A stretch of DNA of 64,000 nucleotides, from assembly GCA_036023115.1 (NCBI GenBank), contig JAYKKT010000064.1, positions 8,502,501 through 8,566,500 on the forward strand, written 5' to 3'. This DNA comes from Brasenia schreberi (lineage: Eukaryota > Streptophyta > Magnoliopsida > Nymphaeales > Cabombaceae). How positions within the stretch are numbered: position 1 is the first letter of the stretch; every line of letters starts with the position of its first letter. Positions 18,341 to 46,021 of this stretch are shown piece after piece. A program made the position numbers and the translations under genes. Under the pieces are notes generated by a model. It did not search any database, had not been told where the DNA came from, and worked only from the letters and a program-made list of their open reading frames with translations.

Positions 18341-18611
18341 TGTTGAAGGATATGATTTTAGAGTCAGTTTTAGTAAATTTGATGTTTTAGGTATTATTGT
18401 AATTGCGTACTAAGGACATTTTGGTCATTTTTTGTTTTACAACTCATTATATAGGGTTAGAAGTTTGTATTAGGGTTAAGAGATTGTGATTAGGAAAGAG
18501 AGAAAGAGAGTGGCATGGCCTCCATTGGAGGTTTGTCCCATCCTTCGTTCTCCCATGTTTTTCCTCTTCAATGTGTTTAATATTCTACTACGCTACTCCC
18601 GAATTCCAATA
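18341..18611 (+). repeat. 5' LTR of the peroxidase-carrying element
   Basis: 271 bp, highly similar to 20316-20594 and clearly related to the LTRs at 42879-43179 and 45733-46021 on the other strand. It carries a perfect CCTCCA-T-TGGAGG inverted repeat. Confidence 0.9.
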
Positions 18612-18624
18612 TGGTATCAGAGCG
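18612..18624 (+). other. primer binding site
   Basis: TGGTATCAGAGCG directly abuts the 5' LTR; one base differs from the copia consensus. Confidence 0.87.
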
Positions 18625-18708
18625 ATTGATTGTTGCAAGCAGAAAAAAGAAAAAGGGCGAGTTGCAGTCAAAGGGAAAGAGAGAGGGAGATAGCGGTTGA
18701 ACGCATCC

Positions 18709-19305
18709 ATGGCTTATAGTTTGGTGTTGATGATGTTGGTGACAAAATTCGTTCTAAGTGGTTTCGGAGTCGTCGGGACTCTCACTGGACTTCTACGAAA
18801 AAACATGCCCTTGGGTGATTCAGGCGGTTAAAGAGGTGGTGGAGAAGGTTGTGCAAAAGGAGCCGCGAATGGGCGCGTCGCTGCTGCGCCTTAAATTCCA
18901 TGATTGCTCTGTCAATAGTTGTGACACGTCTGTCCTTTTTGACGACACTCCAATCTTTGCCGAGGAGAAAAATGCCTCTGGTAACGTGAACTCCTTGAGA
19001 GGATATGAAGTAATCGACGACATCAAGGCCATTATGGATAAGGCTTGCAGTGCATCAATCATCTCTTGTGCGAATATCATAGCCCTCACAATAAGAGATT
19101 CTGTTGTTTCACTTGGAGGGCCATCATGGGAAGTGCAGCTAGGAAGAAGGGATGCCAGAAACGCGAATAAGAGATCTCCCATGGCCTCAAATCAACCTGA
19201 CCAGACTCATAAGCAGATTCCAAGAAAAGGGTTTGGACCTCAAAGACTTTCCTCTCTGCCTCACACACCATCGGTCAGGCTCAGTGCATATCAGATTCTT
19301 TAAAA
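18709..19305 (+). pseudogene. class III peroxidase, processed fragment captured by the LTR element
   Basis: The ATG at 18709 starts a signal-peptide-like run (MAYSLVLMMLVTKFVLSGF). After a frameshift the 18758-19303 frame reads LSLDFYEKTCP, the heme-distal RLKFHDCSVNSCDTSVLFDD, RGYEVIDDIKAIMDKAC, SCANIIALTIRDSVVSLGGP and LGRRD. The proximal-His HTIGQAQC motif lies near 19264 in another frame. These are secreted plant heme peroxidases with four conserved disulfides. Sequence runs uninterrupted across places where family members usually have introns, which points to a cDNA origin. About half of the mature enzyme is missing, so it is non-functional. Confidence 0.9.
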
Positions 19306-19500
19306 AGGGTTGAACAGAGAGCTCGGGAGGAAAGTGAGAAAATGTGTCAGCAAGAGCAGGAACAACTTGCTGAAAAAAAGAAGGCGAGATTTGACTCTTC
19401 GAGCAAGAATCACTGCAAAGGCTCAGGAGAAGAAATCAAAATTGATGTTTCTTCGTTGGGCTGATCACCATAAGAAGCTATGCAATTTTTTTAAGAACTA
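19306..19500 (+). pseudogene. Glu/Lys/Gln-rich coding-like fragment, unidentified
   Basis: One frame reads RVEQRAREESEKMC then QQEQEQLAEKKKARFD, a charged, coiled-coil-like stretch that starts immediately after the peroxidase part. Another frame is open and basic. It may be a third captured gene fragment or the tail of an altered transcript. No family was recognised. Confidence 0.4.
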
Positions 19501-19559
19501 AAGCTGAGCCACCAATACTTTTACATGCCAATAAAGCAGGTAGCCAAGACGATGAACAT

Positions 19560-19735
19560 TGGATTGACGAGAGAGGTTTACCTGCACGTGAACTGTTCAC
19601 TAAAATGCTCAAGAAGAGATTATTAACATGCACATCAAGTGTTTGATTCAATGCCTAAGAGAGATATTTACCTGCACATCAAGTGTTTGAGGAAATATTC
19701 AAGAGGGATGCAAATTCAGAAAAATATTGCAAAAG
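19560..19735 (+). pseudogene. PPR-protein fragment captured by the LTR element
   Basis: Three PPR-like repeat ends appear in succession in different frames: ARELFTKMLKKR (19584), AHQVFDSMPKRD (19630) and AHQVFEEIFKRDANS (19674). The A-x-Q-V-F-D-x-M-P-x-R-D signature is typical of plant PLS-class pentatricopeptide proteins, which act in organelle RNA processing. The fragment is decayed and short, so its source gene cannot be named. Confidence 0.6.
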
Positions 19736-20315
19736 ATATAAAGTAGTACGTGATGATTGCCTTCATGGGAAAAACAGCTGAATGCACATAGAAGGAAAGA
19801 TAAGGCAGAAAAATATTCTATACTAATATACTATCGTATAAACATGAAGGCAATCAACTGTTCCAATAAAGGAAACAGTGTTCCAGGAGGGCTGGAAAAA
19901 TGGCTACATTCACCATGTGAAGGGGCGCAAACCGACTAGTATGAGCAGAAGTGTGTATTATACTATTTGAGTGATAGAGAGAGGGTACTCAACCAACACA
20001 CCGGCAACAGTCACCATGTGAAGGGGCATAGGAAAAGCCGTGTGAAGTGTGTATGGTGGAGATAGTACTTTCTACCACAAAAGATTAACTTTATCAACAG
20101 TAGAAAAGCATGACTTTTGAAGTGTAGTTGCCGAATCACTTCATGGAGAAGAAGAAATAGAGAGGGAACAACCCATACCCATAGAAGGGTCGTGTGTTAC
20201 TCATGTAGATTTAAAGAACCCTCAAAGAGATCGTTAGTGCATATCTGGTGAAGAAAGAACTAGTTTTTTGGCAAGTTTGGAGTTCGAAGTATCTCACTCC
20301 CAACTTGAGGGGGGG
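19736..20315 (+). other. 3' interior of gene-capturing element, unassigned
   Basis: No coding similarity was recognised. CCATGTGAAGGGGC occurs twice (near 19912 and 20014). The last about 45 bases before the LTR (AGTTTGGAGTTCGAAG... CCCAACTTGA) are shared with the element at 42879-46021 and end in the polypurine tract. Confidence 0.6.
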
Positions 20316-20594
20316 TGTTAAGGATATGATTTTAGAGTCAATTTTAGTAAATTTAATGTTTTAGGTATGCTTGTAATTGCCCGTAGTACTAAGGATATTT
20401 TTGTCATTTTCTGTTTTACAACCCATTATATAAGGGCTGGAAGTTTGTATTAGGGTTAACAGGTTGTGATTAAGAAAGAGAGAAAGAGAGGGGGGCGACC
20501 TCCATTGGAGGTCTGCCCCCTCCTTCGTTCTCCCATATTTTTTCTCTTCAATGTGTTATTTAATCTTCCGCTACGGTACTCCCGAATTCTAACA
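20316..20594 (+). repeat. 3' LTR of the peroxidase-carrying element
   Basis: 279 bp, from TGTTAAGGATATG to TTCTAACA; pairs with 18341-18611. The host copia sequence resumes at 20600. Confidence 0.9.
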
Positions 20595-20599
20595 GAACA

Positions 20600-23040
20600 A
20601 TCCTTATGATGGCACTCATATGAACTGAGGTAGGTGAATGCTGAAATTGACTGATAGTATGTTAACATGAGCAATGTCTGGACGTATGATGGTAAGATAA
20701 GTGAGTGTTTCAATCATTAGTGTGTAAGAAGTAGGATCACTTAATCACTCTCCATCAACAAATCGAAACTTCCGGTTGATTACCTTAGGTGTCTAAATAA
20801 CTTTGTCATCTAAAAGTAATGTCATTAGCAAATTTAGTTTGTGATAAGAAAAAACCTTAATCATCACATGTTACCTCAATGCCAAAAAAATAAGAGAATT
20901 GTCTAAGATACTTTATTTTAAATATGTTCTTGCTTGATTTATTGAATCTCAGAATACTATAATAATCATATCATCGACATATAGCAAGAGTATAACAATA
21001 CTTACATAAGACTTCTTTACAAACATGGGTGTGTTAATATATAATGCAATGTCATGAATTCAATCATTTTATCAAACCAAGACTTAGGAGATTTTTTGAG
21101 AGCATATAAAACTCGTTTTAGTTGCAAAACATGGTTTCCATGTATGTGACCAGGAGGAGGTTCCATATATACCTCTTCCTTTAACTAGCCATTCAAGAAA
21201 CCACTTTTAGCATCTAATTGATAGATGTTCCAATTCTGAAATGCACAAACAAGTATAAGGGTTCTAACAATTGTCATTTTGGCCATAAGAACAAACGTTT
21301 CCTCATAATCAATTCTATATTCATGTGAGTAACCTTTAGTTCCTAATTTAGCTATATAATGGTCTAATTTAATGAACCATTACCATTAGTCGTAATTTTA
21401 TAGACCCACCTACAACCTATAGTCTTTTTGTTTTGTTGTCTAGAGACTACATCTCAAGTTTGGGCTCTATATAAAGCATGTAATTCTTCATTCATAGCTT
21501 GAATACAGTCTTCTGATAATTAGGCTTCCTTGAAAGTTCTAATTCCTTTATAACTTAAATATTGGTTACTAGGGATTTATGCCTTGGTGAAAACTATCGT
21601 ATGAAACAAACAGTTTAGGAGGTGTAGAGTCACGACTGGGACCTTCTAGGAATAGATGGAGTAATGTTAGGAGTTCTCCTAGTGTAATATTGATAAAAAT
21701 GAGTTACAAAATGTGTTGAAATCATGTGTTGATCAAGATCATTTTCTACATGAATCATATCTTCTCCTAAAATATCATTAAAAGGAACAGGAAGAATCAT
21801 CAATAGAACTAACATCATCTATGCCTTTAAATACATATTCATTTAAAAAAAAAATTGACATGTATCGATAAATAAAGCTTGTCATTTTTATAGTCATAAT
21901 ACTTATATCCTTTTTTTATTTATTTCATAACCTAATAATACACATTTTATGGCACGAGAAGATAATTTTTCATCTTTGTTAGTATAAACAAAACATTGAC
22001 ATCCAAAAATACCAAAAATACATAGTGTAGAATATTGGGATAAACTTTAAAAAACTTTTCTACATGAAGCAAGTTTTGTAAAATCGAAGAGGGCATTCGA
22101 ATAATTAAATAAACAATCATAATAGCTTCTGCCAGAAATTATTGAGAACACCTCTCGATAAAAGAAAGGTTCTTGTAGTTTTCAAAATATACCGATGTTT
22201 ACGTTCCGAAATACCATTTTATTGTGGAGTTTTAGTGCAAGAGGTTTGATGCACAATTCTGAATTTGTCAAGATGGTTTTTAAAATCTTTTGAAATAAAC
22301 TCTCCTACTGGGTCATATCTAAAAGTCTTTATTTCAGAATCAAATTATTTTTTCACAAAATTATAAAATATAACAAAATTTTAGAAAATATCGGATTTAA
22401 CTTTTAAAAGATATACCTATGTATACCTAGTAAAATCATCTACGAAAATAACATAGTAGGAAATGCCCTTTAGACAAAATGGGTGCCGATCCCCATACAT
22501 TCGAATGGCTATTTCGAAGGGTCTTTTGGTAATATGCATTTTGTTTGAAAAAGTTATATGATGTATTTTGCCAAGAACACAATCTTTGCAAGAATTTTTT
22601 TTTATAATCTTTATTGACAGAGAACATTGATACAACTTTTGAGCATGAAGATGTCCTAATCTTTTGTGCCATAGAAGAGTCTCATTTGACAAAACATTAA
22701 CATATACTATATTATACAAATAATCGACGATATACAGTCCGCCCTCTCTATAGCCACAACGAGTAACCTTTTTCGAGAGGCGATCCATTACAATAAATCT
22801 CATGGAGGAAAAAGTTACAACACAACTCTTATCCGAAATTTGAGATAGATAAAGTAAGTTTAAATTTATTTATTTTTTATTTTACAAATCACCAATTTTA
22901 TCGACATTTAATTTTGTTTCGTCCGTAGTATAAACGCATGATAAAGGCTTTCTAACACATGAGTTTAAAATGTTTTCATTATAAGTCATATGAAATGAAG
23001 TACCCAAATTAAGAATCTAAGAGGATCAGGTGATCCTGTA
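20600..23040 (-). pseudogene. copia RT-integrase-protease of the minus-strand host element
   Basis: Continues the element whose RNase H lies at 17816-18335. The minus strand shows RT (20600-21470; LLYVDDMIII near 20950-20985, a linker near 21500-21880) and integrase C-terminal and core remnants (21890-22420). A 128-codon frame (22417-22803) follows with LWHKRLGHLHAQKL, CKDCVLGK and VIFVDDFTRYT. Protease remnants extend to about 22990. The gag, primer site and 5' LTR are absent; the element stops near 23040 where plus-oriented copia sequence begins. Confidence 0.87.
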
Positions 23041-24985
23041 AAATTTTGCTTTCTCCTTCATTTGAGCATCGAGGTTTTTCATATGGTGAGATCCAAAGAA
23101 GGTTTGTTGATTATCAAGAATTGCATGATTTGGTTAAAATTACCGATAATTCCCTTATATCAATGACTGGAAAAGGAAAACTATGGACACCGTTAGGACT
23201 TCTTGATCCAATTTTATATATACGTTAGATTTCGATGAATCTTCTCTCTATTAGTGCTTTAACTAGAAGACTAAATTATGATATATATTTCTCTTCATCT
23301 TGTTGTGCATTTCAAGAAAAGGAGAAAAGAAAGATTTATGGATATAGTAGAAGAAATGAAGGCCTATACTTGTATAAGGGAACCTCGGGGAAACCAACAA
23401 TGAATATGTCATCAACATAACACAATAAAGAAGCAATACTTTGGCATCGAAGACTAGGTCACTATCAAAGCTAAGGATTCTTGGACTTGAATTGGCTAAA
23501 CTCAACAAAGAAATATGTTTGGAGTGTGAACCATGTGAGTTGGGCAAACATGTTCGAGTTAATTTTCCTAGAAGTGTATCGAGAACTTAAAGTGTATTTA
23601 GTTTAATACATTCAGATGTATGGAGACCTTGCTCGATTACTCTATTATTCTATTATTGGGCATATATATTTCATTTTATTTATTGATGATTATTCTTGGT
23701 TTACTGTCATTTATTTAATGAAATCAAAGGATGAAGTTGCTACAATATTTTCTTTATTTCATAAATTTGTTGAGAACTTGTTTTAGGCACAAGTTAAAGC
23801 TATCATATCAGATAATGGTGACGAATTTACTTCACAAACATTTAATAATTATATTACATCACATGGAATACTTCATCAAACGTCTTGTATATATTCTTCA
23901 CAACAGAATAGAGTAGCATAATGCAAGAATCGTCGTATACTAGAAACAACGCAAACTTTGATGATTGGGAGTAAATCACCAAAATATCTTTGGGGTGAGG
24001 CAATACATGCTTCTTTTTACCTTATAAATTGTTCTCAATCTTCAACTCTTAAAGGTAAAATACCTATGCAATTGCTATTTCCAAAAGAAAAACTATTACA
24101 TATTACTCCTAGAATGTTCGGATGTGTATGTTATGTGCATGTGTATCTTAATAGTAGAGATAAACTCGATCCAAGGGCAGTAAAATGTGTATTTGTTGGA
24201 TATTCACTCTTCTAAAAAGGATATCGATGTTATAACCCTTGCACAAAGAAATTCTTTGTTTCTAAAGATGTTACATTTCATGAGAATACATATTATTATA
24301 GTAGTGAGGGAGAGCTAGAGCAAGTTATAAAATAGAAGGAGGTACTTCTCCCATTACTATGAAAAGAAGTTGAGGAAGAAGATCTGGAAGAACAAAAGAA
24401 CAAAGATAATAGTGAAAGGTCTGAAAAACAAGCTCCAAATCAGGTGTACACAAGAGGAACAAGGAATACATTTGTGGCAGACGTAAGAGGACCACAAGAA
24501 GACTCTAATTGTGCAACACCAACTTCTCGATTACCTACATCACCAAATCTAACAACAAATTTAGACCTACCATAAATCATTTGTGGCAAATGATGATGTA
24601 GTAGTAATTCAAAAAACCTGAGAGGATGCAACCTTTTATCAAAAGAATGATAGCTCGCTAAGGAAGAGGAAATTGATGCATTAAAAAAAAACAATACCTG
24701 AGAAATTGTATCATTATCGAAAGAGAGAAGTTATAGGGTGTAAATGAGTATATACCGTAAAATACGAAGCATATGGAGAAATTGATAGATACAAAGCTAG
24801 ACTCGTTGTAAAGGGATATAGTCAATCCTATGAGATAGAGAATAATGAAATATTTGCTCCTGTAGCAAAGATGACTTCTATTCGTGTTCTTATCAGCTTG
24901 ATAGGTAACAAAGGATGGGAAATGTGGTAAATGTAAAAAATGCCTTACTTCAAGGAAACCTCACTATCATCAATCGATCATTTCC
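23041..24985 (+). pseudogene. copia protease-integrase-RT start, plus-oriented half of an inverted element
   Basis: From 23046 the frames read FVDYQELHDLVKITDNSLI, MNLLSISALTRRLNYDI, then integrase (HPDVW-like near 23610, ISDNGDEF near 23805, SPKYLWGEAIHASFYLINC 23958-24215), DKLDPRAVKCVFVGYS and RT N-terminus ([18 protein letters not shown] near 24790-24840, NVKNALLQGN near 24935). Coding sense ends at about 24985, and the next 0.7 kb encodes the following RT part on the other strand. Confidence 0.85.
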
Positions 24986-25740
24986 AATCAACATCGTATA
25001 CAATTTTAAATCGTTATGCTCATGATTAGAATACAAGATACCATTTTCAGGAGTATTCTTTATGTATCTCAAAATCTTGAATATTGCATCCATATGTTGT
25101 TGTTTTGGAGCATGCATAAATCTACTAAGAATCTCAATAACTTATGTTATGTCAGGTCATGTGATTGTCAAATATATCAATTTTTCCGTAGTCTTTGATA
25201 TCTTCTCGCATTGTTGATCTCCTTACCATTATTTATACCTAATCTATGATTGATATCCATGGGAATGTTGCATGGCTTTGATCCTTTAACACATGTTTCT
25301 TTTAATAAGTCCATTACATATTTTTGTTGAGAAAGGAAGATACTTTTTTTGATCTCAATACTTCAATATCCATGAATAATGAAGTAATCCCAAATCTTTC
25401 AAGTCAAAAAGTTGATGCAACCGATTCTTTAAATTTTGAATTTCTTCTTCATCATCTCCTATCACAACAATATCATCCACGTACACAATTAGTAGGGATA
25501 TTCCATTTTCTTTTTTATAAACGGTGTATAGTCATTTTTACTTTGGTATACTCGAGTCCAATGATTCTTTTACTGAAACGTTTAAACTATGCCCGTGGTG
25601 ATTGTTTCAGTTCATATAAAACTTTCTTCAGCTTGCTGGTCCATATTGATGTTTCAATCCTTGTGGAACTTACATGTACACTAAGTACACTTAATGATTT
25701 AAACATATAGAGAGGTGACCAAATGAAGCTCTAATGAGAT
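24986..25740 (-). pseudogene. copia RT, inverted 3' half
   Basis: On the minus strand, from about 25690 leftwards, it encodes KLKKVLYELKQSP-like sequence, a YVDDIVVIGDDEEEIQ-like active site (about 25455-25495) and YIVSYA/ HMDAIFKILRYIKN near 25020-25100. It begins almost where the plus-strand RT stops, so the two may be one element whose 3' half was inverted. The RNase H end and LTR are missing. The + strand frame at 25324-25710 is only a shadow. Confidence 0.8.
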
Positions 25741-25829
25741 GTGAGAAACTAAACAGTCAACACTCCAAAAGAAGGAGATGAAGACTGCGGAAGTGTTGTG
25801 AAGAAATTGTTTAACATGATATGGCTTTT

Positions 25830-25945
25830 TTAGAGATAACTACTGATATGGCACAAGATTGAGCACTATGACATAAAGGAAACAGTGTAACCGACCCTAC
25901 CTAGTATGGGAAAAGGCTTGGTCATTGTTGTTGTTGTTAACTGTA
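25830..25945 (+). mobile_element. RTE-type LINE 3' tail
   Basis: Remnant of the last codons (equivalent to ELTANMAHDRDLW) followed by the conserved CTAGTATGGGAAAAGGCTT and a (GTT)n tail at 25924-25939. Strongly 5' truncated. Confidence 0.75.
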
Positions 25946-26135
25946 TAGAAAGTTCACTTAACCAGGGAAGGCATTTATTGGGCCTCTGATAGTGTGTGAA
26001 GTAGGATTTTCATTGATCTATATATGTTAATGAATCTCTAATTTCTACTTACAAATTTTTGTTTCATCCTTGTGCACTTGGAGACCTTTATTTTGTTCTT
26101 TGTGGCATGATTAAGTTTTTCTCAATCTTATGCAG

Positions 26136-26396
26136 AGGGTCAATCAGTGTCTTGGAGATGCTTGCAGAGATTCACACATTGATAATTGCCTTGATTTCAT
26201 TGACTGTGGGCGTGGTGACAATGAATTTGATCACTACAAAAACTGGCCGGATTGGACAAATAATTCTAATGCAACAAACTGCCTCATCACTTCTAGTAAT
26301 TATTTTGCTTATGGGATATATGTCAACGCTGTTCCTATTACCACGAAGAGCAGCATTATAACAAGATATATTTACTCTTTATTTTGGGGGTTTCAG
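26136..26396 (+). CDS. CNGC20: CNGC19/20-type channel, exon encoding the S5-pore linker
   Basis: 87 codons, phase 0 at both ends, between acceptor TTATGCAG and donor GTATAT. The protein reads RVNQCLGDACRDSHIDN, CLDFIDCGRG, a Cys-rich extracellular loop typical of this CNGC subgroup, then FAYGIYVNAVPIT and RYIYSLFWGFQ, which leads into the pore helix. It follows directly in frame from GSCWYLFGLQ of the exon at 6661, 19.2 kb upstream. No stop or frameshift is present, so the gene appears functional despite the intron load. Confidence 0.93.
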
Positions 26397-26984
26397 GTAT
26401 ATTACTGTTTATCTATTCTACAGTTATCTTTTTACTTTCTCTACATAGTACTCTTATATGTCTGGATCAATGGAATTTTTCTTTTTCTTTGCTTTTTACA
26501 TGTTCAATTACATGCTTCTCCATCCGGTACTTATTTAGGAACTTCCCTTTGTGAAAGTCCTCTGTCGTTGGTACATATAGAATTATCTAGTGCCATTTGT
26601 CCTTTTGAGGGTTTTCTGGGGAATATGTGGAACAAAATTATTTGTATTTTTATTTTTATGAATCATTAGCTTTTATCTAGGGGCATTTTAGTGATCCTAA
26701 TGTCATTCTGCACACTTTGGATTGTTATTTGTAACGCCATCATCTTAATTTTCTATTCTATGCGTGTGACTGTGCCTAGCGTGAGAGCATGAGCTTCTGA
26801 TTCTCTGTACGAGAAATGTCTTGTTCAAAGTATAAAGGAAGGTGAACATAGAATACTTATCATTCCGACTTATGGGCCCACTCCATAGTAAAAGCTGCAC
26901 CTGCTTCTCTTTTCTAATTGATTTCATTCAAGATCACAATGGTAATAAAGATGGACGTAACTCAGAATCTACTTGATTAGAGAA
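26397..26984 (+). other. CNGC intron sequence, no feature seen
   Basis: T-rich intron sequence after the donor at 26397. The open frame running on from the exon is read-through, not coding. Confidence 0.6.
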
Positions 26985-27724
26985 TGATGGAAAGTGAAAA
27001 AGGCATCGGCATATCATGAGAGTTTACCCAAGAAACAAAATAAAATAAAACTAAGAAAACTAAGGAAACAAAATATTACACAAAACAAACAAACAAGCAA
27101 GATGACATATCAAGATTATGTAATGAACCAGCACACTACAGCTTGGATTGGTAACAGGCACAGTGAATATCCTTCAAGAGATCACCAGTCTACATAATGA
27201 CTGAAATCAGTCCACTTAGACAATGAAATCAGTCTCAAATCACAAACAAAGCAAGAACTAACTCGAAACCTCACAAAAGGCATTCATTAACTATGCCAAA
27301 AGGCATCGGCATTACAAGGAATGTATGCTCATTATATAGGGCTGAAGGAAAGGCAGGCAGAATGGCTGCCTGTGGCTAGTCAACTAGCTGTTGGCAATGG
27401 GCTATGACTAGTTGACTAGCTGCTAACGCCATCCTGGTCTTCAAAGGATGAGGTTTGACATATAATAATAAGGTTGTAACACCAATGGCGTTAGCAGCTA
27501 GTCAAACCTTATTATATGACAAACCATATTATATGTCAAACCTTATTATATGACATATAACGCCATCAAATGTGTTGCACCTGTGGTCTTCAACTAGGTG
27601 TTGGCAATGGGCAACTACATTAACAAAAAAATGAAAAGGAAAAAGAAAAACTACATTTTACCCATAAAATACATTCTAACTAACAACTCAACATAAATTC
27701 TAAATAATGAATTAAATTTAACAC
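26985..27724 (-). repeat. 3' LTR of a minus-strand copia element (boundaries approximate)
   Basis: Ends in TTTAACA followed by CCCTTCTCAAACTT, the polypurine tract read from the minus strand. It contains GGCATCGGCAT repeats and GGCTAGTCAACTAGC-like palindromes resembling the LTRs at 42718 and 54831. It holds a 20-bp perfect inverted repeat (27413-27432 and 27485-27504). The left end is a guess. Confidence 0.55.
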
Positions 27725-27946
27725 CCTTCTCAAACTTTACATGGAGAAAATGAAAAGCTTGGGTAAATTATCCCCAAAAAAGGAATTGTACGATACGAAA
27801 TGACATAAAAAAGACTAATAACTCTAATTCTAAAATCCAAAAATGTGTTTTTCTTTTACTCAGTCCTTTTGGTAAGGCATCAATAAGGAACTATTTGAAT
27901 AGGGTTGGATTTTCAATTCCAATTTAGCAGTATACCAATGAATGAG

Positions 27947-28230
27947 AGTTGAAGGATAGGGAAGGAACGGATATATGCTCCTATTGGATCCATATTTGGT
28001 CCAATAGGAGCTCCATGGTGTAAGTTTTACTAAGTAGGGGTATATTAGGAATTCAAGTTAGAAACCATTATAAAGAGAAAAACCTATACCCTAATGTAAA
28101 AACGTGAAAGAGAAGAGAGAGAGTGGGCTGCTACCAAGGATGTGGCGCCGACTCTCAACCCTTTGTAGCTTTGATTTTTCATGATATGATTGATTGTTTT
28201 TCATTATTTGTTTTGTGTGTGAGTGTCTTT
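27947..28230 (+). repeat. 5' LTR of the deleted copia element
   Basis: Matches 29775-30053. The first base is A instead of the expected T of TGTTGAAGG. U3 holds a perfect 12-bp inverted repeat at 27977-28011 (arms GCTCCTATTGGA and complement). Confidence 0.85.
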
Positions 28231-33710: not shown

Positions 33711-33741
33711 AGATAATATTCCTATACTGGCCCACCTATAC

Positions 33742-35190
33742 CAGATAATATTCCTATAGAAGTTTGGAAAATACTAGGAGAAATAGGAATCACTTAGCTC
33801 ACAAGACTATTTAATGAAATATGGAAAAACCAAAAGATGCCCGAGGAATGGAGAGCAAGTACACTTATACCCATATATAAGAACAAGGGAGACATTCAAA
33901 ATTGTGTGAATTATCGAGGTATCAAGTTAATGAGCCATACTATGAAATTATGGGAAAGAATTATTGAACATAGGTTAAGAGAAGTATCAAGTACAACAGA
34001 GAACCAATTTGGATTTATGTCAGGCAGATCTACTATTGAAGCGATTCACCTTTTGAGATGTCTTATGGAACATTTTAGAGCAAAAAAGAAAGACCTTCAC
34101 ATGATATTTATTGATCTAGAAAAAGCTTATGATAGAGTACCAAGGGAGGTTCTTTGGAGAACATTGGAAAAAAGAGGTATCCCATTGACATATATTAACC
34201 TTATAAGAGACATGTATGATGGTGCAAAAACATGTGTGAGGACTCATGAAGGAACGACAAACTTCTTTGAAGTTAATATTGGGTTACATCAAGGATCAAC
34301 TTTAAGTCCATACTTATTTATAATGGTGATGGATGAGTTAACAAAACATATTCAAGATGAAGTACCTTGGTGTATGTTATTTGCAGATGACATTGTATTA
34401 GTGGAGGAGTCTAAGGAAAAAGTTAATAGAAAATTGGAACTATGGAGAGAAACATTAGAAAGCAAAGGCCTCCGACTTGTTTGAACAAAGACAGAATATA
34501 TGGAATGTAAGTTTGATCATTTGACTACTTCAGAGGGCATAGAAATTAAAATTGGCACACATTGCATTTCCCAAAAGTAAAGTTTTAAATACCTAGGGTT
34601 AATTTTTCAAAGTGATGGAAGAATTGATGGAGATGTTACACATAGAATTAATGCTAGTTGGTTAAAATGGAGAGGAGCATCAGGTATTCTTTGTGATAAG
34701 AAGATACCATTAAAATTAAAAGGTAAATATTATAGAGCAGCAATTAGGCCTGCCATGTTTTATGGTTCTGAGTGTTGCGCAATTAATCATCAACATGTAC
34801 AAAAGATGTCTGTGACAGAAATGAAGATGTTGAGATGGATGAGTGGTCATACAAGAAAAGACCGTATACATAATGAGGTTATTAGAAACAAATTAGGAGT
34901 GACACCAATAGAGGATAAAATGAGAGAACATCGTTTAAGATGGTTTGGACATATAGAAAGAAGATCAAAAGAAGAACCTGTAAGAAGGTTAGAAACACTA
35001 AATTTGGAAAGTATTAAAAGAGGTAGAGGACAACCACAAAAGTGTTGTAAAGAAACAATAAAGAATGATCTAGCTTATTGTGAGTTAACTGCTAACATGG
35101 CACACGATAGGGATCTGTGGAAACAAAGAATCCATGTAGCCGACCCCGTCTAGTATGGGAAAAGGCTTAGTTGTTGTTGTTGTTGTTGTA
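33742..35190 (+). mobile_element. RTE-type LINE, 5' truncated
   Basis: Encodes a non-LTR reverse transcriptase and ends in CTAGTATGGGAAAAGGCTTAG and (TTG)n at 35170-35190. This microsatellite tail, not poly(A), is known from plant RTE-clade LINEs. The endonuclease part is missing at the 5' end. Five other fragments of the same family are in the window. Confidence 0.85.
33760..35152 (+). pseudogene. LINE reverse transcriptase
   Basis: Blocks in order: [74 protein letters not shown] (palm Asp), [17 protein letters not shown] and the catalytic [11 protein letters not shown] (33837-34484). After a stop come YGSECCAINHQHVQKM, MLRWMSGHTRKDRIHNE and RLRWFGHIERR (34755-35153). Two or three stops or shifts break an otherwise long frame. 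Confidence 0.9.
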
Positions 35191-35716: not shown

Positions 35717-35819
35717 TCGGATTGAAGAAATCAGGTGCATTGGGAAGCGTGCCATCAGTGCAAAATTTGAAGAATTTTACCAAACTTAAAGTTAGTTTAT
35801 AATTTGTAATTTTTGCAAA

Positions 35820-36790: not shown

Positions 36791-37815
36791 GTCTTGGTTT
36801 TTAGATTCTGGTGTATCCTTTCATATGTCACATAGTGAAGATTCTTTGATTAATTCTTGTGAAACCATTGGAAAGCATGTGTTTACGGTCGATGGAACAA
36901 AACTCCAAATCAAGAAATTAAGAAACCTCGAAAAACAAAACTTTAAAATTCAAAATTTAAGTTTTATACCTAAACTTAATTTAAATCTACTTTCGGTTGC
37001 TCAAATATGTGATAACAATTGTATAGTCACTTTCTCATCCAAACATTATGTGGTGCAGGATCACCTATCAAAGAAGGTGATTGGTCAAGGCCATAGAGAA
37101 AGTGGACTATACAAAATGGCCTATCTTGTTATGCCAAATTCCGGTTTTTGTAACACAACCCAAGATGCTACGTTATGGCATAAAAGACTTGGACACTTGG
37201 ACTCTCAAAAATTGTGTAATATTCCTTTGATAAAAAGTATTGGAGAGAAAAATTTTGAATGTAAAGATTGTATTCTTGAAAAAATGCATCATCTTCCTTT
37301 TGGAGAAAGAAACTATGTACCAAAGAAAGCTTTTTATTTAATACATTCGGATGTTTGGGGCCAAACGCCCGTTGTTTCTAAAGGAGGATTGCAATACTAT
37401 GTGATTTTTGTAGATGACTTTACTCGTTTTACATGGATATATCTCTTAAAACACAAATCCAAAGTATTTGAAAAATTTGTAGTATTTTGTAATATGATCA
37501 AAAACCAATTTGGAGCAACCATTAAAACTTTTAGATCCAATTCGGGAGGAGAGTACATGTCTAATGAATTTCACAAATTTATTGAAACTAATGGTATTAT
37601 TCATAAAAAATCATGCACTAAAACACCCCAACAAAATGGTCTAGCGGAAAGAAAACATAGGCATATTATTTAAACTTGTAGAACTATGCTAATTGCTAGT
37701 AAGGTTCCTAAATTCTTATGGGCCGAAGCTACTCTTACCGCAGTATATCTTATAAATAGAATGCCTTCATCTAACCTTAAGAATACTTCACCTTTCAAAA
37801 ATTTGTACAAAATCT
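36791..37815 (+). pseudogene. copia protease-integrase with catalytic substitution
   Basis: Protease site WFLDSGVSFHMSHSED (near 36795). Pre-integrase LWHKRLGHLDSQKL and CKDCILEK follow, then integrase HSDVWGQTP, FVDDFTRFTWIYLLKHKSKV and PQQNGLAERKHRHI. The second catalytic Asp block reads FRSNSGGEY, where the family has S-D-N-G, so the active site is broken. A TAA at 37671 ends the 370-codon frame; coding sense continues with LIASKVPKFLWAEATLTAVYL. Confidence 0.9.
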
Positions 37816-38607
37816 CTCCATATTATGAAAGATAGGGTTTTTGGATGTAGATGTTTCGTGTATACAAACAAGAATGACAAATTGTCACCTAGAGCTATTG
37901 AATGTGTCTTCCTTGGTTATGGCATTGACAAGAAAGGGTATAGGTGTTTTGATCCCATAGAAGACAAATTGTACGTATCCAAGGATGCAAAATTTTTTAA
38001 GAATGATATTTATTATGAGTCCAAATCCTTGGAAAATTCGGAACCTTTCATTCCTCAAGATGTTTTTGAGCTAGCAAAAGATAATGATTGTGACTCAGTA
38101 GATCATCAAGACATTCAAGAAGATCATGTTGAAAACAATGACATTTCACACACCACTGTTGATACTCGGTCCATTGTCGAACCCTTCCCCTCACATTATA
38201 CAAGACGACCTAGAGAAACCAATGAAGTCCACATAGAACCTGATATTACAAGATTAAAACCCAGGGTTTCAAGACCTCCTCAATGATTTGTGTCTTTTGA
38301 ACCACAATGAAGAAATTTGATTGCCACGCTTCGTTAAGTTAAGGAACCTAGGTTCTATCATCAAGCTAAAGGTATTCCAGAATGGGAAAATGCTATAAAA
38401 GATGAACTCAATGCCCTAGACAAGGATCAGACATGGATAGTTGTACCCATGCCAAAAGATAAGAAAGTCATTTGATGTCGATGGGTATATAAAATCAAAA
38501 CTCACAGCAATGGTCACATTGAGAGATACAAGGTTAGACTAGTTGCTAAAGGTTATGCTCAAGAATATGGAATTGACTATGATGAAACCTTTGCCCCAGT
38601 AGCTAGA
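37816..38607 (+). pseudogene. copia integrase C-terminus and linker
   Basis: A 153-codon frame (37825-38286) starts with DRVFGCRCFVYTNKNDKLSP and AIECVFLGYGIDKKGY, the conserved C-terminal integrase block, followed by an acidic linker. The RT N-terminus (W-V-Y-K-I-K-T, ERYKVRLVAKGYAQEYGIDY) follows to 38607 with stops. Confidence 0.88.
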
Positions 38608-39861
38608 ATGACCACAATTAGAATTCTCATAACCATTAGTGCAATTAAGCAATGGAATATATACCAACTTGATGTCAAGAATGCTTTCTTGAATGGTTAC
38701 TTGAATGAAGAAGTCTACATGAGTCCTCCTCCTGGGGTCACTCTCCATCCTGGTCATGCTCTTAAATTACGAAAGGCTTTGTATGGTCTGAAACAAGCTC
38801 CAAAAGCTTGGTTTAATCGATTTGAAAAATTCATGCATTTGCATAATTTTGTGACTTGCTATACTGATACTGCATTGTTTGTACGAAAAACACAATCTGG
38901 TATTGTTATCTTGCTTTTGTATGTGGATGACATGATCATCACAAGAAGTAATGAAGTGGGAATTGCTAAAGTTAAACTTAATCTGCATCACAAATTTGAT
39001 ATGAAAGACTTGGGCTTGCTGAATTACTTTTTAGGTATTAAGATAACCAAAAATAGTTGTGGATACTTTATGTCTCAAACCAAGTTTGCTAACGATATTG
39101 TTGAAAGGTCCGGTATTACAGATACTAAGGTTGTTGACACACTAGAAATCCTAGGCACGAAACTACGATCCACTGATGGTGAGAAATTGGAGGATCCCAC
39201 TCCTTATCGCCAGCTCATACATGCACTCACTTATCTCACCATTACTAGACCATATATTTCTCATGCAGTACACATAACAAGCCAATTTCAACAGGCACCC
39301 ACTGCTAATAATATGAGTGTTGTCTTGCGCATCAATCGATATATTAGAAACACTGCCCAAAAGGGGGGCCTCTTAACTGCCTCCTCATCCTTTGATTTGT
39401 TTGTATATACGGATGCTGATTGGGATGGAGATGTCAACAATAGACACTCTACGACTGGTTTTTGTGTATTTTTAGGTGAATCTCTTGTTTCCTGGACGTG
39501 CAAAAAGCAACAGAAGGTGTCCCTCTCATCCACAGAAGCCGAATATCGAGTCATGGCTACAGCTGCGATGGAGATTACTTGGGTCACAACCCTTCTAGCA
39601 GACATGAGAGTCAATATTAAACACCTGACCATCATGTATTGTGACAACAAAAGCGTCATGTACATTGCCTCCAACAACACTTTTCATGAGAGGACAAAGC
39701 ATATCGAGATGGACTGCCACTTTGTTCGTGAAGAGTGTCTAAATAAGATCTCACTTTGTTATGTCACATCCGAGATGCAACTAGCTGATTTCTTCACCAA
39801 ATCTCTTTCGGCGACTCGATTTCAATTCTTATTAGACAAACTTTCTATGTATACCCTGTAA
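38608..39861 (+). pseudogene. copia RT-RNase H, 417-codon open frame
   Basis: Open from 38608: TTIRILITISAIKQWNIYQL, DVKNAFLNGYLNEEVYMSPP, LRKALYGLKQAPKAWFNRF, LLLYVDDMIITRSNE (YVDD catalytic box) and MKDLGLLNYFLGI. RNase H has VYTDADWDGDVNNRHSTTGF, SLSSTEAEYRVMATAAMEI, YCDNKSVMYIASNNTFHERT and QLADFFTKSLS. All key Asp/Glu residues are visible. It is the best preserved retroelement frame in the window. It is listed as a pseudogene because the upstream frames are broken. Confidence 0.93.
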
Positions 39862-39874
39862 GTTTGAGGGGGGG

Positions 39875-40240
39875 TGTTAATGTAATAGGCGCACGGGCCT
39901 TTAGGGCCCGTGCCACCCTAATGGAAGAGGACCAGGGCCACCATGGCCCTGGCCCAACTGTTGGGGACCCCAACAGCTAATGCTGGCCGACCAGCACTAG
40001 TCCTTCTTACTCTTTCTTGTCTCTCATTCTAACACCTTGTAAAATGCCTATATATACTACTTCATTCAATCAATAAAGCATGCAGTCTTGTACTGCTTTT
40101 TGACTTGATTTGTATACGCTTCTGCTCTTGTTTGTTATCTTTGAAGATCGACATTCGAGATTGAATGTCATTTGACTCTTGGCGACTTGGTGATCTTGAT
40201 TCGTGCAACATCAACCTTCGATCATTAACGTATATTTACA
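39875..40240 (+). repeat. 3' LTR with four hairpins
   Basis: 366 bp, partner of 35338-35703. Here a fourth perfect 9-bp inverted repeat is visible at 39891-39913, which is decayed in the 5' copy. Confidence 0.92.
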
Positions 40241-40430
40241 GGTGATATCATCTTCGTAAGCTCATCAATTTTTAAAATCGATTCTTGGATAGTGTCATTC
40301 ACGTAATTCCAATAATCTTTTGATAAAAAATATTTTTTCATTATTCATACTAAACTTTGATAGTTATTTAGATCAAGCAAACAACAAAATACCTCATTTT
40401 CTCACCCATTTCTCACAAAGATAAGTTTTT
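40241..40430 (-). pseudogene. copia gag of the mosaic element, part 2 (N-terminus)
   Basis: The minus strand encodes a KKYFLSKDYWNYV-like gag N-terminus that joins the piece at 35191-35337 as D-D-I-I-K-A-Q once the insertion is removed. The sequence then runs to the primer site at 40535. Confidence 0.7.
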
Positions 40431-40534
40431 GAAGATTACTTTAACCTTGGAATATCAAAAGTATGAACACAAAACTTGCTTCAAGTTGAACACACTTCCC
40501 AATACCGTTAGGGTCGATAATATTTATCCGAGTA

Positions 40535-40547
40535 GGCTCTGATACCA
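40535..40547 (-). other. primer binding site of the mosaic element
   Basis: On the minus strand TGGTATCAGAGCC, directly inside the LTR start at 40548. Confidence 0.9.
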
Positions 40548-40696
40548 TGTAAGAATAACTCTTTAACTTGCTTGAAGAGCTTTCGCCAAATCATAAATCA
40601 AGAATCGCCAAGCGATCAATGCATCAAATACACCAAACACTTTGTTTAAACCCACAAACCGAGTCAAAAGAAGAGCCACCGAAACAAACCAAATAT
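40548..40696 (-). repeat. 5' LTR of the mosaic element, truncated
   Basis: Matches the first ~149 bp (plus-strand reading) of the 400-bp LTR at 31013, then stops abruptly at AAATAT and unrelated copia linker sequence begins. Confidence 0.85.
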
Positions 40697-40930
40697 AGAA
40701 GGTGGTGATAACTATACAAGATCTCTTAGGTTTCTCGACTCAAAGGTTTATTGGTTTCACTTAATATAGTATATTTGGATGAACCTATATCGTTTCTTGA
40801 ATGCATGGATGGATCTCCTTTAGTCAAATTCTTTTTGATGTCTTGTTCAATATTTTCTTCTTGGTCTTCATTGTCCTTAAAGAACATGCACTGAAGGATA
40901 TCTAGAATAATTAGAAACTCTCAGATTCTC
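40697..40930 (-). pseudogene. copia linker remnant (continuation of the host element of 30054-31012)
   Basis: The minus strand reads an acidic linker-like DNEDQEENIEQDIKKNL, as found between copia integrase and RT. It is probably the host element continuing beyond the insertion. RT N-terminal sequence between the two pieces is missing. Confidence 0.45.
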
Positions 40931-41316
40931 ACTTTTATAGTAATAACTGATTTTCAGTAAATTTTACATCCTTTTATATAGTCTATCAAATCATAACATT
41001 AATAACCTTTCTTATCAAAGAAAAATGCATTCAATGGCTCAAGTTGAAAATTTGTCACCTTTATTTAACAACATAAAGCATTTGCATCTAAAGATTTTAA
41101 ATGGAGGTAATTTTGTGAAACTTTAAACAATTTTGAATTGATGAAATGTTAAAACGGAGGACAACATTCTATTTATCTAACAAATTGAAGTCATAATAAG
41201 ACAAATTTTTTAGGCTAATGTCAGTGTTTGCACTCAACAAGCTCATTTTGTTAATCGTATCTAACTTATATTCATGAACATCTTTTATTAATTTTTGTAA
41301 TCTGGTGTTGTTTCAG
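40931..41316 (+). other. end of 14.9-kb CNGC intron, no feature seen
   Basis: AT-rich sequence ending in TGGTGTTGTTTCAG before the exon at 41317. Confidence 0.6.
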
Positions 41317-41462
41317 CAAATCAGCACTTTAGCTGGAAACCAAGTCCCTAGCTCATTTGTCTGGGAGGTTCTTTTCACCATGTTAATAATTGGACTCGGG
41401 CTCTTGCTATTTGCACTGCTTATTGGGAATATGCAGAACTTTCTCCAAGCTCTTGGTCGAAG
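41317..41462 (+). CDS. CNGC20: CNGC19/20-type channel, pore and S6 exon
   Basis: 146 bp, phase 0 start, leaving two bases (AG) of a split Arg codon; acceptor TTTCAG, donor GTAGCA. The protein begins QISTLAGNQVPSSFVWEVLF, covering pore helix and filter, then TMLIIGLGLLLFALLIGNMQ (S6) and NFLQALGR. The A-G-N-Q filter neighbourhood is that of CNGC group IVa and differs from the G-Q-N type of other plant CNGCs. It joins in frame to LFWGFQ of the exon 14.9 kb upstream. FALLIGNMQNFLQAL is nearly invariant in plant CNGCs. Confidence 0.95.
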
Positions 41463-42717
41463 GTAGCACAATATTTCATATAATTGTCCAGACATGTTAT
41501 CAGTGTTCAAAATTTATCTCATTATTTGGTTCTGTTGTTGTACTAAAGAAATTATTGGAAGTTAAAATTATGCTCTTCACATGGATTTTGTTTATAACCT
41601 TGAATGAACTTCCTGTATGGAGGATTAGAAAAAACAGTTTGTTAAACCTCTAGCCTATTAATAAGCATGCTTGGCTTCTGTTTATGGGAAGACAGAAGAA
41701 GGGAAGAGAGAAAGAGCGGAAAGGAAGCGAAGAGAAAAAGAGAGTGGAAACTTGTTTTGCAAAATTGTGGATATTTGCCATGTGCTCCTTCTCTTTTCTC
41801 TAATAAACGATTGAAAGAAAGGTAGTCTTTCACTATTAAATTGGCTTAAGGGTCCTGGTACCATATCAGAAGATTATCCTACCTGTAATTATCAACAGGA
41901 TTGCAAATGCAAACCCAAGATATTTTGTTACATCCGGCGGGCTTCTTTCTTTTTTTTTACATTTCTGCCTAGTCTTAATATATCCTCTTTTACACCCCTC
42001 ATAAACTGTGGTTGACCAAGAACTAAAAACTTTTGCAAAACCTATGTTATACAACAGGTTGCAACTTAATATGTCTAATGGATCTGCTCATCTTCTACTT
42101 TTTCCTTAACAAGATTTTGGTCAATTTCTTTTGTCATTCATTTGTTCATGTTGAACCAAACTATGGGAGATCACATTTTATCTTTATTATATTACAAAAT
42201 ATCAATTACTACTTTACCTGTCTGACATGAGGCTGCATTAAGATGTCAAAATCTATAGAGCTTGTAGTTGTGACTATGGGTGCTGACTGCAGGTGTCAGT
42301 CAGCTCTATGTATGCTTCTTGGCTTGCTGATTAACAATCAAACATGGGGATGTGCACTGTATCTTGTGATTCTCATGCTCCCCTGATTTCATACCAATCA
42401 ACTAAAAAATGTCAAAAATGTGAACATACACAGACAGAGTTCAATGATGATCTGCTAGTTGCTTCTCTGTGTGAACAAATCTTAGTTTGTGATCCTCTCT
42501 TTTTCTTTGTCAAATAGATTGCCAATCATCGTCAATGTACTTTATTCTTCCCTTCTGTATAGAATGCAAATAGCAACTTTTCCTTTAATTATCATAGCAT
42601 AGGACCAATCAATTTTTCACTAAAGAATGTAATATTTTTGTAGTGTTGTTCTTTCTTAGAGTGTATTTAGGCCATAAATGTATTTTTTAAATTTTCCTTG
42701 TATTTCACTCAGCAGGG
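41463..42717 (+). other. CNGC intron sequence, no element recognised
   Basis: AT-rich sequence without recognisable coding or repeat ends. A purine-rich stretch lies near 41688-41745. Confidence 0.6.
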
Positions 42718-42878
42718 TGCCAAGAGCTTATCCAGTAGCACTTGCAACTGCCAACGGCTAGTTGACTAGCCCTTGGCAGTTAGTGTTGGCTGTCTCTCTT
42801 GTTGATCCCAGCCCTATATTAAGGACTCTTCTCCCCATATATTTCTCATGCCTTCGGCATGTTTCATGAAGTATTTTT

Positions 42879-43179
42879 TGTTGGGAAACGTAGGTAGCGC
42901 AGTGAAAGATTGAATATCACACACGAGAAGAACAAGCGAAGAGAAAATGTGGAGATCGAAGGAGGGGGTAGGTCCTCTAATGGAGGCCGCTCCCTCTCTT
43001 TCTCTTTTTTAATCTTAGTCTCTTAACCCTAATACATCATGTTCAACCCTTATATAATGGGTTGTTAGACACAAAATTACCAAAATGCCTTCAGTATTAC
43101 GGGCAATTACAATAATACCTAAAACATCAAAATTATTAAAACTGATACTAAAACCAGCAGATATTCATATTCTTTAACA
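42879..43179 (-). repeat. 3' LTR of the HSP70/PPR-carrying element
   Basis: 301 bp, TG...CA; pairs with 45733-46021 and is related to 18341-18611 on the other strand. Confidence 0.9.
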
Positions 43180-43259
43180 CCCCCCAAGTTGGGAGTGAGA
43201 TACTTCGAACTCCAAACTTGTCAAAAAACTTATTCTTTCTTAATTTTTTTCTATTTTTC

Positions 43260-43860
43260 AGCCCTCTTAACCGTCCACTTTTCAGCAACCTTCCTTGCTG
43301 CAACATTCTTCATCAACCTTCATGGTTGTTCTTCAGCAGCTTCATGGTTGCACAAATCTTCAACAACCTTTTTGGTTGCAACAACTTCAACTCAACCTTC
43401 ATCGTTGACCATTTTCAGCAGCTTCTTTGCTGCAACATTTTCAATAACTTTTTTTGTTGCAACATCTTCAACTCAACTTTGATGGCTAGTCATTTTCAGT
43501 ACTGCAACAACTTCTTCGACGGCAACATTTTCAACTCAAGCTTCATGACTGGTCATTTTGAGTAGCTTATTCACTACAACATTTTCAACAGCTTCTTTGG
43601 CTGTAACATCTTCAACTCAGCCTTCATGGTTGATCATTTTCAACAACTTTTTGGCTGCAATATTTTCAACAACTTTTTTGGTTGTAATATCTTCAACTCA
43701 ACCTTCATGGCTGGTCATTTTCAGCAGTTTCTTCGATGCAATATTTTTCAACAGCTTCTTTGGCTGCAAATTCCAACAATGTCATTGCTGCAAAACATAT
43801 TTCAGCAGTCCTCATGACTGCAATCTTCACCTTAAAAAACTGCAACTCCCTTAGCTGCAC
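43260..43860. repeat. 81-bp tandem repeat (minisatellite)
   Basis: TTCAACTCA-type unit starts occur at 43309, 43386, 43467, 43530, 43611 and 43692, with spacings 77, 81, 63, 81 and 81. The unit contains CTTCATGGYTGRTCATTTTCA and TTGGYTGCAA motifs. On the minus strand each unit ends in a stop codon, so it is not one repeat protein in that frame. It lies between the PPR fragment and the polypurine tract. Confidence 0.85.
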
Positions 43861-43878
43861 AATTTTAGCTGCTTTCTC

Positions 43879-45020
43879 CTAAAATTCTGCAAAAATATCG
43901 ACCAATGCACTTGAAGCAAATATGTTTGAATCCATCAAATTTCTTAGAACATAAGAGTGGATCTGTTTTCCCTGTTTCTCCCTTTTCAAATCAGCACATG
44001 CTGAGAGAACACTTGTAATTGTAATTGCATCAGCTTGAATAAACAAATTTATGACATCTTTGAACTGCAAATCATCGGAATTCCCATCTACAGAAGGCAA
44101 CTTCAATACCTGATCCATTTCCTCTTATCTGGCGTACGAGGCAAGAAATGTGTTATAGGTGACAATGTCTAACTTTACACCAGTGTCTTTGATCATATCA
44201 ACAAACGCTAAAGCCTGTTCCATATCACCATCTTCAACAAAAGAGGCAATCATTTCATTCCATAATGTAGCATTTTTGCGAGACATTGATTCAAAATTTT
44301 CCTACCAGATTCCTGATCTCCACATTTCAGGTACATATCGATGATAAATCCATTTAAAAATACATTGGTTTCAATTCCATGTCTAATTATATACGTATGC
44401 ACTTCCTTCCCCATCAAGAGACAACTCAACTCTAACAAAGTAGCAAGGATGCTTGAGATGGTGATGTTGTTAGGATTCTCATACGGTAGCATCTTGCGAA
44501 AGACTATAAGAGCATCATCGACATGACCATTCTCTATACATCCAGATATGATCCCATTCCATGAACTCGCACCAGGAACTGTCCCGCTCCTTCTCATCTC
44601 ATCCAACAGCCCAAGCGCTGAATTAAGGTCGTCGCACCATGCACATGCAAAAATCAATGCATTCCATGCAATCACATTTGGGCACAACCCAATAGCTGTC
44701 ATATAGTCAAAACACTCCAGAGCTTCTTCAAGAAGGCCAGATTCTGAGTAAGTTGTAATCATCACCGTCCATCACACTACATCTCTTGGAGGCATTTTAT
44801 CAAAAACTTGCCGTGCACGATACAGTCTCCCACATTTCACGTACATATGAATGAGAGAATTGCCAACGAAAACATCTAACTTCGAGTCCCCTTCTTAAGC
44901 CCCAACAAAACGATAAACACAAACCCTGTAGCAGAGAGCAACACTTGGACTCGTCAACACATTTTGCAGAAGAACTTTTATGATGCCCAAAGCCGCTCAA
45001 TAATCAGATGCAGAGGACCT
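43879..45020 (-). pseudogene. PPR-protein fragment captured by the LTR element
   Basis: Reading leftwards: [31 protein letters not shown], then a 171-codon frame (44250-44765) with MITTYSESGLLEEALECFDY, MTAIGLCPNVIAWNALI, LLDEMRRSGTVPGASSWNGI, GKEVHTYIIRHGIETNVFLN and DMYLKCGDQESGRKIL. Another repeat at 43879-44118 includes ITITSVLSACADLKREKQGK. This is a PLS-type pentatricopeptide protein; such proteins bind organellar RNA. Stops and a shift near 44250 break it, and both protein ends are missing. It is sense relative to the LTR element. Confidence 0.9.
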
Positions 45021-45044
45021 TCCATTTAGACTTATTTCAGCAGG

Positions 45045-45710
45045 ACTTTGAGACGGGGACCTCATGTGTGGCCTCCTGAGTGGTCAAAGATGCATGACGT
45101 TGAGGCCCGCTATCATGCCCGCGTCCTTGGTTGCCTGCCTTTGGGAATCATTGAAGTAGTCCGGGATGGTAACAACAGTGTTCTTGACTGTGGACCCGAG
45201 CTACGCTTCGGCGATCTCACGCATCTTTATGAGTACCATCGAGGAGATCTTCTCAACGGCGAACTGTTTCTCTTCTCCCTTATACTGGACAACTATCATG
45301 GGCTTGTCGCTGGTCTTGGAATGACCTTGAAGGGCCACAACTTGATGTCGCTCTGCACCGTTGCATCACTGAATCACCTTCCAATCAAAAGCTTGGCATC
45401 AAAGACAGTGTTAATCGGGTTCATGGCGACCTGGTTCTTGGCGGCATCGCCGATGAGACGCTCACCGTCCGTAAAGGCGACGTAAGAGGGCGTCGTTCTG
45501 TTACCCTGGTCATTGGCAATAATCTCGACTCGATCATGCTGCCATACTCCGACGCAGGAGTACGTAGTTCCGAGATCAATACCGATCGCCGGGTCCTCTC
45601 CTTTTTCGACCATTAGATCATATCTAAAGAAGAGAAACGCAAAAGAGAATAGAAGCGGCATGAGAGAGAGTTTCCCTTCGTCTTTTTCCTCTTCAAAGTC
45701 GTTGCTCCCA
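45045..45710 (-). pseudogene. cytosolic HSP70 N-terminal fragment, processed, captured by the LTR element
   Basis: The frame 45374-45733 contains [40 protein letters not shown] and [20 protein letters not shown], the ATPase-domain start of a plant Hsp70 chaperone. It continues after a stop as [50 protein letters not shown], then [20 protein letters not shown] and [12 protein letters not shown] near 45085. Plant HSP70 genes often have an intron near the LIGRRFSD codons. Here the sequence is continuous, which indicates a spliced transcript origin. At least two stops are present. Roughly residues 1-175 of about 650 remain. Confidence 0.93.
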
Positions 45711-45719
45711 TCAATCGAA

Positions 45720-45732
45720 GGCTTTGATATCA
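45720..45732 (-). other. primer binding site (variant)
   Basis: Minus strand TGATATCAAAGCC next to the LTR; two differences from TGGTATCAGAGCC. Confidence 0.8.
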
Positions 45733-46021
45733 TGTTGAAAAACGTAAGTAACGTAGCGGAAGATCGAATATCACGCGAGAAGAATAAGTGAAGAGAAAAA
45801 TATGAAGGTCGAAGGAGGGGGCAGGTCCTCTAATAGAGGTCGCCCCTTCTCTCTCTTTCTTAATCTTAGACTATTAACCCTAATACATCATGTTTAACCC
45901 TTATATAATGGGTTGTTAGACACAAAATGTTCTCAATACTATGGGCAATTACAATAATACCTAAAATATCAATATTACTAAAATTGACACTAAAACCAGC
46001 AAATATTCATATTCTTCAACA
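45733..46021 (-). repeat. 5' LTR of the HSP70/PPR-carrying element
   Basis: 289 bp; pairs with 42879-43179 and differs by small indels. Outside it lies TTTTT (46022-46026), repeated at 42874-42878. Confidence 0.9.

Follow-up and report, generated by a model that had tools for sequence, protein, structure and literature searches.

Two gene-carrying elements of Brasenia schreberi probably belong to a high-copy non-autonomous copia-type family with differing host cargo

Introduction

Retrotransposons with long terminal repeats (LTRs) that have captured host genes are usually encountered as scattered cases. Bs1 of maize contains parts of three host genes between its LTRs (PMC13317346), represented by exons only (PMC4717578), and GmaRetroS15 of soybean, one of the terminal-repeat retrotransposons in miniature (TRIMs), also has three host genes (PMC4717578). 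Here we describe two LTR elements, E1 and E2, in a 64,000-nucleotide stretch of the Brasenia schreberi genome (the window, G000:C64:8502501-8566500, from an assembly of 1,055,133,615 bp in 92 contigs). They very probably represent a high-copy non-autonomous copia-type family in which the cis-acting ends are kept and the coding region is replaced by pieces of host mRNA.

The gene-bearing TRIMs comprise 30 elements of 1,172-1,449 bp in 7 of 289 subfamilies; two carry several genes, their fragments are exon-only, and their target duplications are 5 bp (PMC4717578). LTR elements of maize, rice and sorghum capture genes as well, and a maize survey records 425 elements, at least 189 captures and 81 families, with no element holding fragments of more than one standard gene (PMC2774510, PMC3726574). 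Retroduplicated NLR genes of pepper are spliced and lie within LTR elements, ~72% of them non-autonomous, and two or three genes within one element are mentioned (PMC5664825). Pack-MULEs are named in the TRIM report as a further gene-carrying system (PMC4717578).

Results

E1 (18341-20594, plus strand) and E2 (42879-46021, minus strand) are complete LTR elements of 2,254 bp and 3,143 bp respectively. The E1 LTRs lie at 18341..18611 (5′, 271 bp, TG..TA) and 20316..20594 (3′, 279 bp) on the plus strand, and those of E2 at 45733..46021 (5′, 289 bp) and 42879..43179 (3′, 301 bp) on the minus strand. All four begin with TG and three of the four end with CA, the exception being the 5′ LTR of E1. A copia-type primer-binding site follows the 5′ LTR in E1 (18612..18623, plus strand; TGGTATCAGAGC), which we take to be of the initiator tRNA-Met type, and the corresponding site of E2 is at 45721..45732 on the minus strand (TGATATCAAAGC). 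Both insertions are clean. The flanking 5-mers are GAAAA/GAACA for E1 (4/5) and AAAAA/AAAAA for E2 (5/5); the E2 flanks, joined with one 5-bp copy removed, align at 80% identity across 200 bp with window positions 55145-55344, where a relative of the target lies uninterrupted, with a 5-bp overlap, and the joined E1 flanks continue through four related copia stretches. An LTR profile search of the window found no full copy beyond E1 and E2.

An earlier note on this DNA, made from the sequence alone, had proposed that the two elements form one family with constant ends and exchangeable middles. The ends are indeed alike, with related LTRs (Kimura two-parameter distance, K2P, of 0.186-0.233 between elements, 0.117 between the LTRs within E1 and 0.141 within E2) and a constant block before the 3′ LTR (20251..20315, plus strand, in E1; 43180..43241, minus strand, in E2), within which 32 of 32 bases are identical (20276-20307 and 43185-43216). 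None of 100 shuffled versions of the window contains a match to the 32-bp block, and the 80-bp local score at this place exceeds those of all 2000 shuffles. The block of E1 translates as KFGVRSISLPT-stop and is followed by a run of G; it is the end of a copia pol gene, because copia elements A (KLGVLNIFHPA-stop, 16336) and B (KLGVTSIFHPT-stop, 50629, minus strand) of the window end alike. The ~45-bp stretch noted earlier is thus shared, as claimed, and is to be read as the last copia pol codons, the stop and the polypurine tract, the stop codon being changed in E2. The middles differ: their best match is 36 bp long and scores 36, where 100 shuffles reach at most 34. The likeness of the two leaders past the primer site is weak, being reached by 27 of 2000 shuffles. 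By a hand estimate from the LTR divergence ~4 differences would be expected in the 32-bp pol tail and 0 are seen; constraint may have acted on the tail in source copies.

Allowing up to 2 mismatches, the genome contains 2,012 copies of the pol-tail block (1,033 + 979) and 0 of a reversed control. A search with the LTR yielded 3,531 first-look candidates, of which 40 were scored. The LTR and pol-tail patterns have 0 matches in IMG/VR; four matches of the LTR pattern in bacterial genomes were judged to be chance. A block resembling the pol tail in locus L027 (7072-7118, minus strand) precedes a different LTR-like sequence, which suggests a second related non-autonomous family.

Twenty loci were fetched from places scored with E1 19290-20250, and 15 of them are full elements. 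The other five (L025, L033, L034, L038 and L041), with no correctly oriented 5′ LTR in the stretch, stand outside the full-element counts and were kept in the comparison of 5′ segments. The 15 elements are 2.0-4.1 kb in size with LTR K2P of 0.062-0.118; all have paired LTRs, with matching termini resolved in 12, and target duplications are exact at 5 bp in 9 and match at 4 of 5 in 2 (L040, L042 and L044 being outside these calls). Most of the interiors begin with the primer-site motif of E1 or variants of it. E1, E2 and the sampled copies have features of Ty1-copia elements, namely paired TG..CA LTRs, a 5-bp duplication, a primer site and a polypurine tract. When ten copia peptides from the window were used as tblastn queries, none of the 15 elements showed copia coding between its LTRs, and this, together with the 2,012 pol tails, goes well beyond two degraded copies of a copia family, the alternative the earlier note had allowed.

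The cargo varies between copies. There are 14 different 5′ segments among the 15 elements, and 16 among 17 when E1 and E2 are included; L031 and L040 are the only pair with an entire 5′ segment in common, so the cargo is not the same in all copies. Smaller stretches recur: ~90 bp at the segment start is common to L026 and L027 and likewise to L043 and L044, L029 and L032 share 143 bp, L028 shares 284 bp (70%) with L034 and 53-56 bp with L043 and L044, and 361 bp common to L034 and L041 resembles a long interspersed nuclear element (LINE) by eye. Among the 136 pairs of the 17 elements, homology anchored at the 3′ side is present in 136 and at the 5′ side in 7, exceeding 150 bp in one. The ends that are kept consist of U5, the primer site and a short leader on the 5′ side, and the pol tail, polypurine tract and U3 on the 3′ side.

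Pieces of at least 50 aa from the variable segments of the 15 elements were compared with Pfam at an E-value cut-off of 0.001. The 89 sense pieces match 18 families, none of them from a retroelement, including pentatricopeptide repeat (PPR) models, UBA_E1, guanylate kinase, RCC1 models, VASt, ANTH, dynamin GED, PH, SNO, pinin, ribosomal L22, NIF, B-box and S-methyl transferase; the 98 antisense pieces match one. VASt was assigned to L035 and SNO to L030, and PPR, guanylate kinase, UBA1, ANTH, RCC1, GED/PH, NIF, B-box and the methyltransferase were assigned to elements by eye. Pfam gave no identity for the third gene of E2 or for the cargo of L026, L029 and L044. The UBA1 gene on C57 is split twice by ~78 bp, and L042 is continuous at both points; the L042 segment is found, in full or in part, in three more copies. 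Two copies of this segment, G000:C80:4062554 and 4101758, are listed as 100% identical ~39 kb apart, and may reflect a recent duplication or an assembly effect.

The cargo of E1 begins after a leader (18624..18696, plus strand) with a piece of class III peroxidase mRNA (18693..19288, plus strand), in which three exon blocks are joined. Two donor loci, C92:3743757-3744922 and C89:6568988-6570128, match it in three blocks at 83-90%, and both are split twice where E1 is continuous; in the C92 gene both gaps read as GT-AG introns. The piece begins 16 nt upstream of the ATG and, by a count made by eye, ~19 nt downstream of the donor TATATA, near the expected cap site. In the genome the peroxidase query had just 5 first-look candidates, and scoring of all 5 showed them to be E1, both donors and two partial matches. 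Adjoining it is a pinin (PF04696) fragment (19287..19569, plus strand; Pfam E 3.1e-10 for a peptide read across frame breaks), which, among the 40 places scored of 2,154 first-look candidates, recurs outside E1 at C72 (L025) and partially at C67 (L027) and nowhere else. In both of these the pinin sequence extends further 5′, and in E1 the peroxidase takes its place, with TGCA in both parents at the junction.

Downstream lie two family modules on the plus strand, c1 (19570..19812), which has 44-bp repeats, and c2 (19869..20250), which is frequent in the family and has no counterpart in E2. All of the 40 scored places in the genome search with E1 19290-20250 match c1 or c2. The earlier note had placed a PPR segment downstream in both elements; this stands for E2 (see below), and in E1 the corresponding sequence is c1. 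The tested piece of E1 had no Pfam match, and since its PPR-like repeat belongs to c1 it is not host cargo and was rejected as such.

E2 has three host gene pieces, and E1 has pinin in addition to the peroxidase, so the cargo is richer than the single 5′ gene end plus PPR segment first described, and some of its modules are common to several copies. The E2 leader (45616..45720, minus strand) matches several other places over its first ~50 bp and two apparent sibling copies over nearly its whole length. It is followed by an HSC70 mRNA piece (45092..45615, minus strand), joined at query ~320, where the HSC70 loci on C73, C91 and C92 are split and E2 is continuous. The two copies that include the leader, on C45 (83%) and C84 (84%), are likewise unsplit and look like siblings. 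A third host gene fragment (44892..45074, minus strand) has loci on C43, C86 and C88 that are split by 81-82 bp at query position 76. The PPR gene fragment (43889..44899, minus strand) has its best loci at C63:8676567-8677718 (93%, 85%) and C59:8769738-8770884 (92%, 83%), reaching 92-93% over most of the piece, and a shortened form is present at four more genome places. Family module tr (43242..43879, minus strand), with 27/81-bp tandem repeats, comes next and is also present in some sampled copies.

Both elements reside within a CNGC20-like gene that spans window positions 6661-59350 on the plus strand and has transposon-rich introns of ~19.2, 14.9 and 15.0 kb. E1 is in the intron at 6910-26135 in sense orientation and E2 in that at 41463-56454 in antisense orientation. 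Six exon stretches were placed using a probe, and their joined peptide is ~71% like plant CNGC20 proteins; two exon stretches of the gene match CNGC structures, and all 11 exon borders checked have the expected GT or AG. Elsewhere in the window are remnants of a transposase, presumably of hAT type, in which DUF659 and, weakly, a BED finger are matched (48429-50075, minus strand), and several LINE copies 85-95% alike at 33740-35184, 54489-54839 and 59834-62734, which we assume to be of RTE type. Rfam and tRNA scans of the window gave no match.

Discussion

Most of the sampled copies hold sense host sequence, spliced where tested, between their LTRs in different combinations. Capture via spliced mRNA follows from the donors of the peroxidase, HSC70, UBA1 and the E2 third gene being split where the elements are not, and splicing together with the sense bias argues for capture at the RNA level. 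The likeliest mechanism we infer is template switching during reverse transcription, with the 3′ part kept and the 5′ part replaced. Particles of an autonomous copia would package element RNA along with host mRNAs, and reverse transcriptase would first copy the 3′ LTR, the pol tail and older 3′ modules before switching at short matches onto a host mRNA, at times onto a second or third. Copying would reach the mRNA 5′ end or its vicinity and then jump back to the leader beside the primer site, such that every round would retain the 3′ part and renew the 5′ part. The order of modules, with a constant pol tail, common c2, c1 and tr, and mostly private 5′ cargo, fits late switches in reverse transcription that starts at the 3′ end.

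Several observations weigh against this interpretation. The 3′ constancy is partly built in, because the 20 fetched loci were chosen by E1 19290-20250, a bias that E2 and the six LTR-selected loci alone escape. E2 has the pol tail in common with all 16 others; at the LTR-selected loci L006 and L008 the 3′ LTR is preceded by the pol tail, with c1 and c2 in L006 and neither in L008. Of the four LTR-selected 5′ loci, L010 has most of the L043 cargo plus c1 and c2, and the other three share 57-86 bp with other copies: L007 has 57 bp in common with L042 and is otherwise unmatched in that comparison, L011 has 75 bp in common with L043 and a PPR-like peptide by eye, and L012 (~1.15 kb, with tr and the pol tail) has the leader of E1 (80% over ~86 bp from the primer site). 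A 340-470-bp segment is common to L031, L033, L035, L036, L038 and L040, and part of the 'variable' sequence is therefore modular. L036 has intact termini, yet its duplication matches at only 2 of 5 positions. The single antisense Pfam match (RTC, 7e-6; RNA 3′-terminal phosphate cyclase) is to a host family, and HSP70 matches on C55 (73%) and C17 (71%) also cross the HSC70 split point ungapped; HSP70 genes that lack introns, or further copies, may account for these. The peroxidase, in the C92 gene, is the only case in which splice sites were read, and the peroxidase/pinin junction is the only one read closely. No autonomous partner was found, and no genome-wide search for one was made.

Among alternatives, it is unlikely that no more than a few capture events supplied the cargo and that recombination, between co-packaged element RNAs or by DNA exchange, now reshuffles it with no frequent new capture. 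In favour of this reading, pinin (E1, L025, L027), HSC70 (E2 and its two apparent intronless siblings), the L042 cargo, the modules c1, c2 and tr, and the 340-470-bp segment all recur in several copies. However, the peroxidase is found only in E1, its donors and two partial matches, and the many host families within 15 elements would each require a capture of its own. That the elements are nothing but a common autonomous copia with ordinary internal deletions and incidental cargo is quite improbable, for while the pol tail and stop resemble those of copia elements A and B, copia coding is present in 0 of 15 full elements and host domains in many. That LINE-made retrocopies entered LTR elements which had already integrated is scarcely credible. 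LINEs are able to produce spliced copies, and LINE reverse transcriptase copies exist in the window, but LINE insertions are 5′-truncated whereas the peroxidase and HSC70 pieces have the 5′ end and not the 3′ end, almost all host domains run in the sense of the element, and the apparent siblings hold the HSC70 piece at the same place next to the leader.

Returning to capture by template switching, the question of whether the family is a standing gene-shuffling system is evenly balanced. Cargo turnover would then be normal, and some two thousand elements would hold from hundreds to more than 1,000 spliced combinations, oldest at the 3′ side and newest at the 5′ side. If this is true, the family both samples the transcriptomes of the past and supplies new chimeric genes. 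One family with different, often multi-gene, spliced cargo would make template switching measurable on hundreds of natural replicates, including the switch junctions, the choice of mRNA and the direction.

The earlier description of the family as undescribed needs qualification. Searches of the open-access literature, subscription papers not being covered, brought up no single LTR family that is as large as this one and carries mostly private cargo from several genes. Since the maize counts imply more than one capture per family on average, cargo exchange within a family is not new as such.

Bs1 is reportedly one fixed chimera, whereas most sampled copies of the Brasenia schreberi family differ in cargo. 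Pack-MULEs, a single transposon type with many different gene fragments, are DNA transposons and retain introns; the Brasenia family is like them in having many different gene fragments in one element type and unlike them in that introns are absent where tested. As a supplier of new gene combinations it would be their counterpart at the RNA level. With the TRIMs it has in common that these are small non-autonomous LTR elements with 5-bp duplications and exon-only fragments, but E1, E2 and the 15 copies, at 2.0-4.1 kb, are larger than the gene-bearing TRIMs (the LTR-selected L012 is ~1.15 kb), and the family differs from TRIMs in having ~2,000 pol tails and cargo in most sampled copies. In the accessible portions of the pepper study one gene class is central and no single family with exchangeable cargo is described (PMC5664825), and unlike the elements of the maize survey, E1 has two host genes and E2 three. 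Gene capture by LTR elements is known; what looks new is the scale of private multi-gene cargo within one family.

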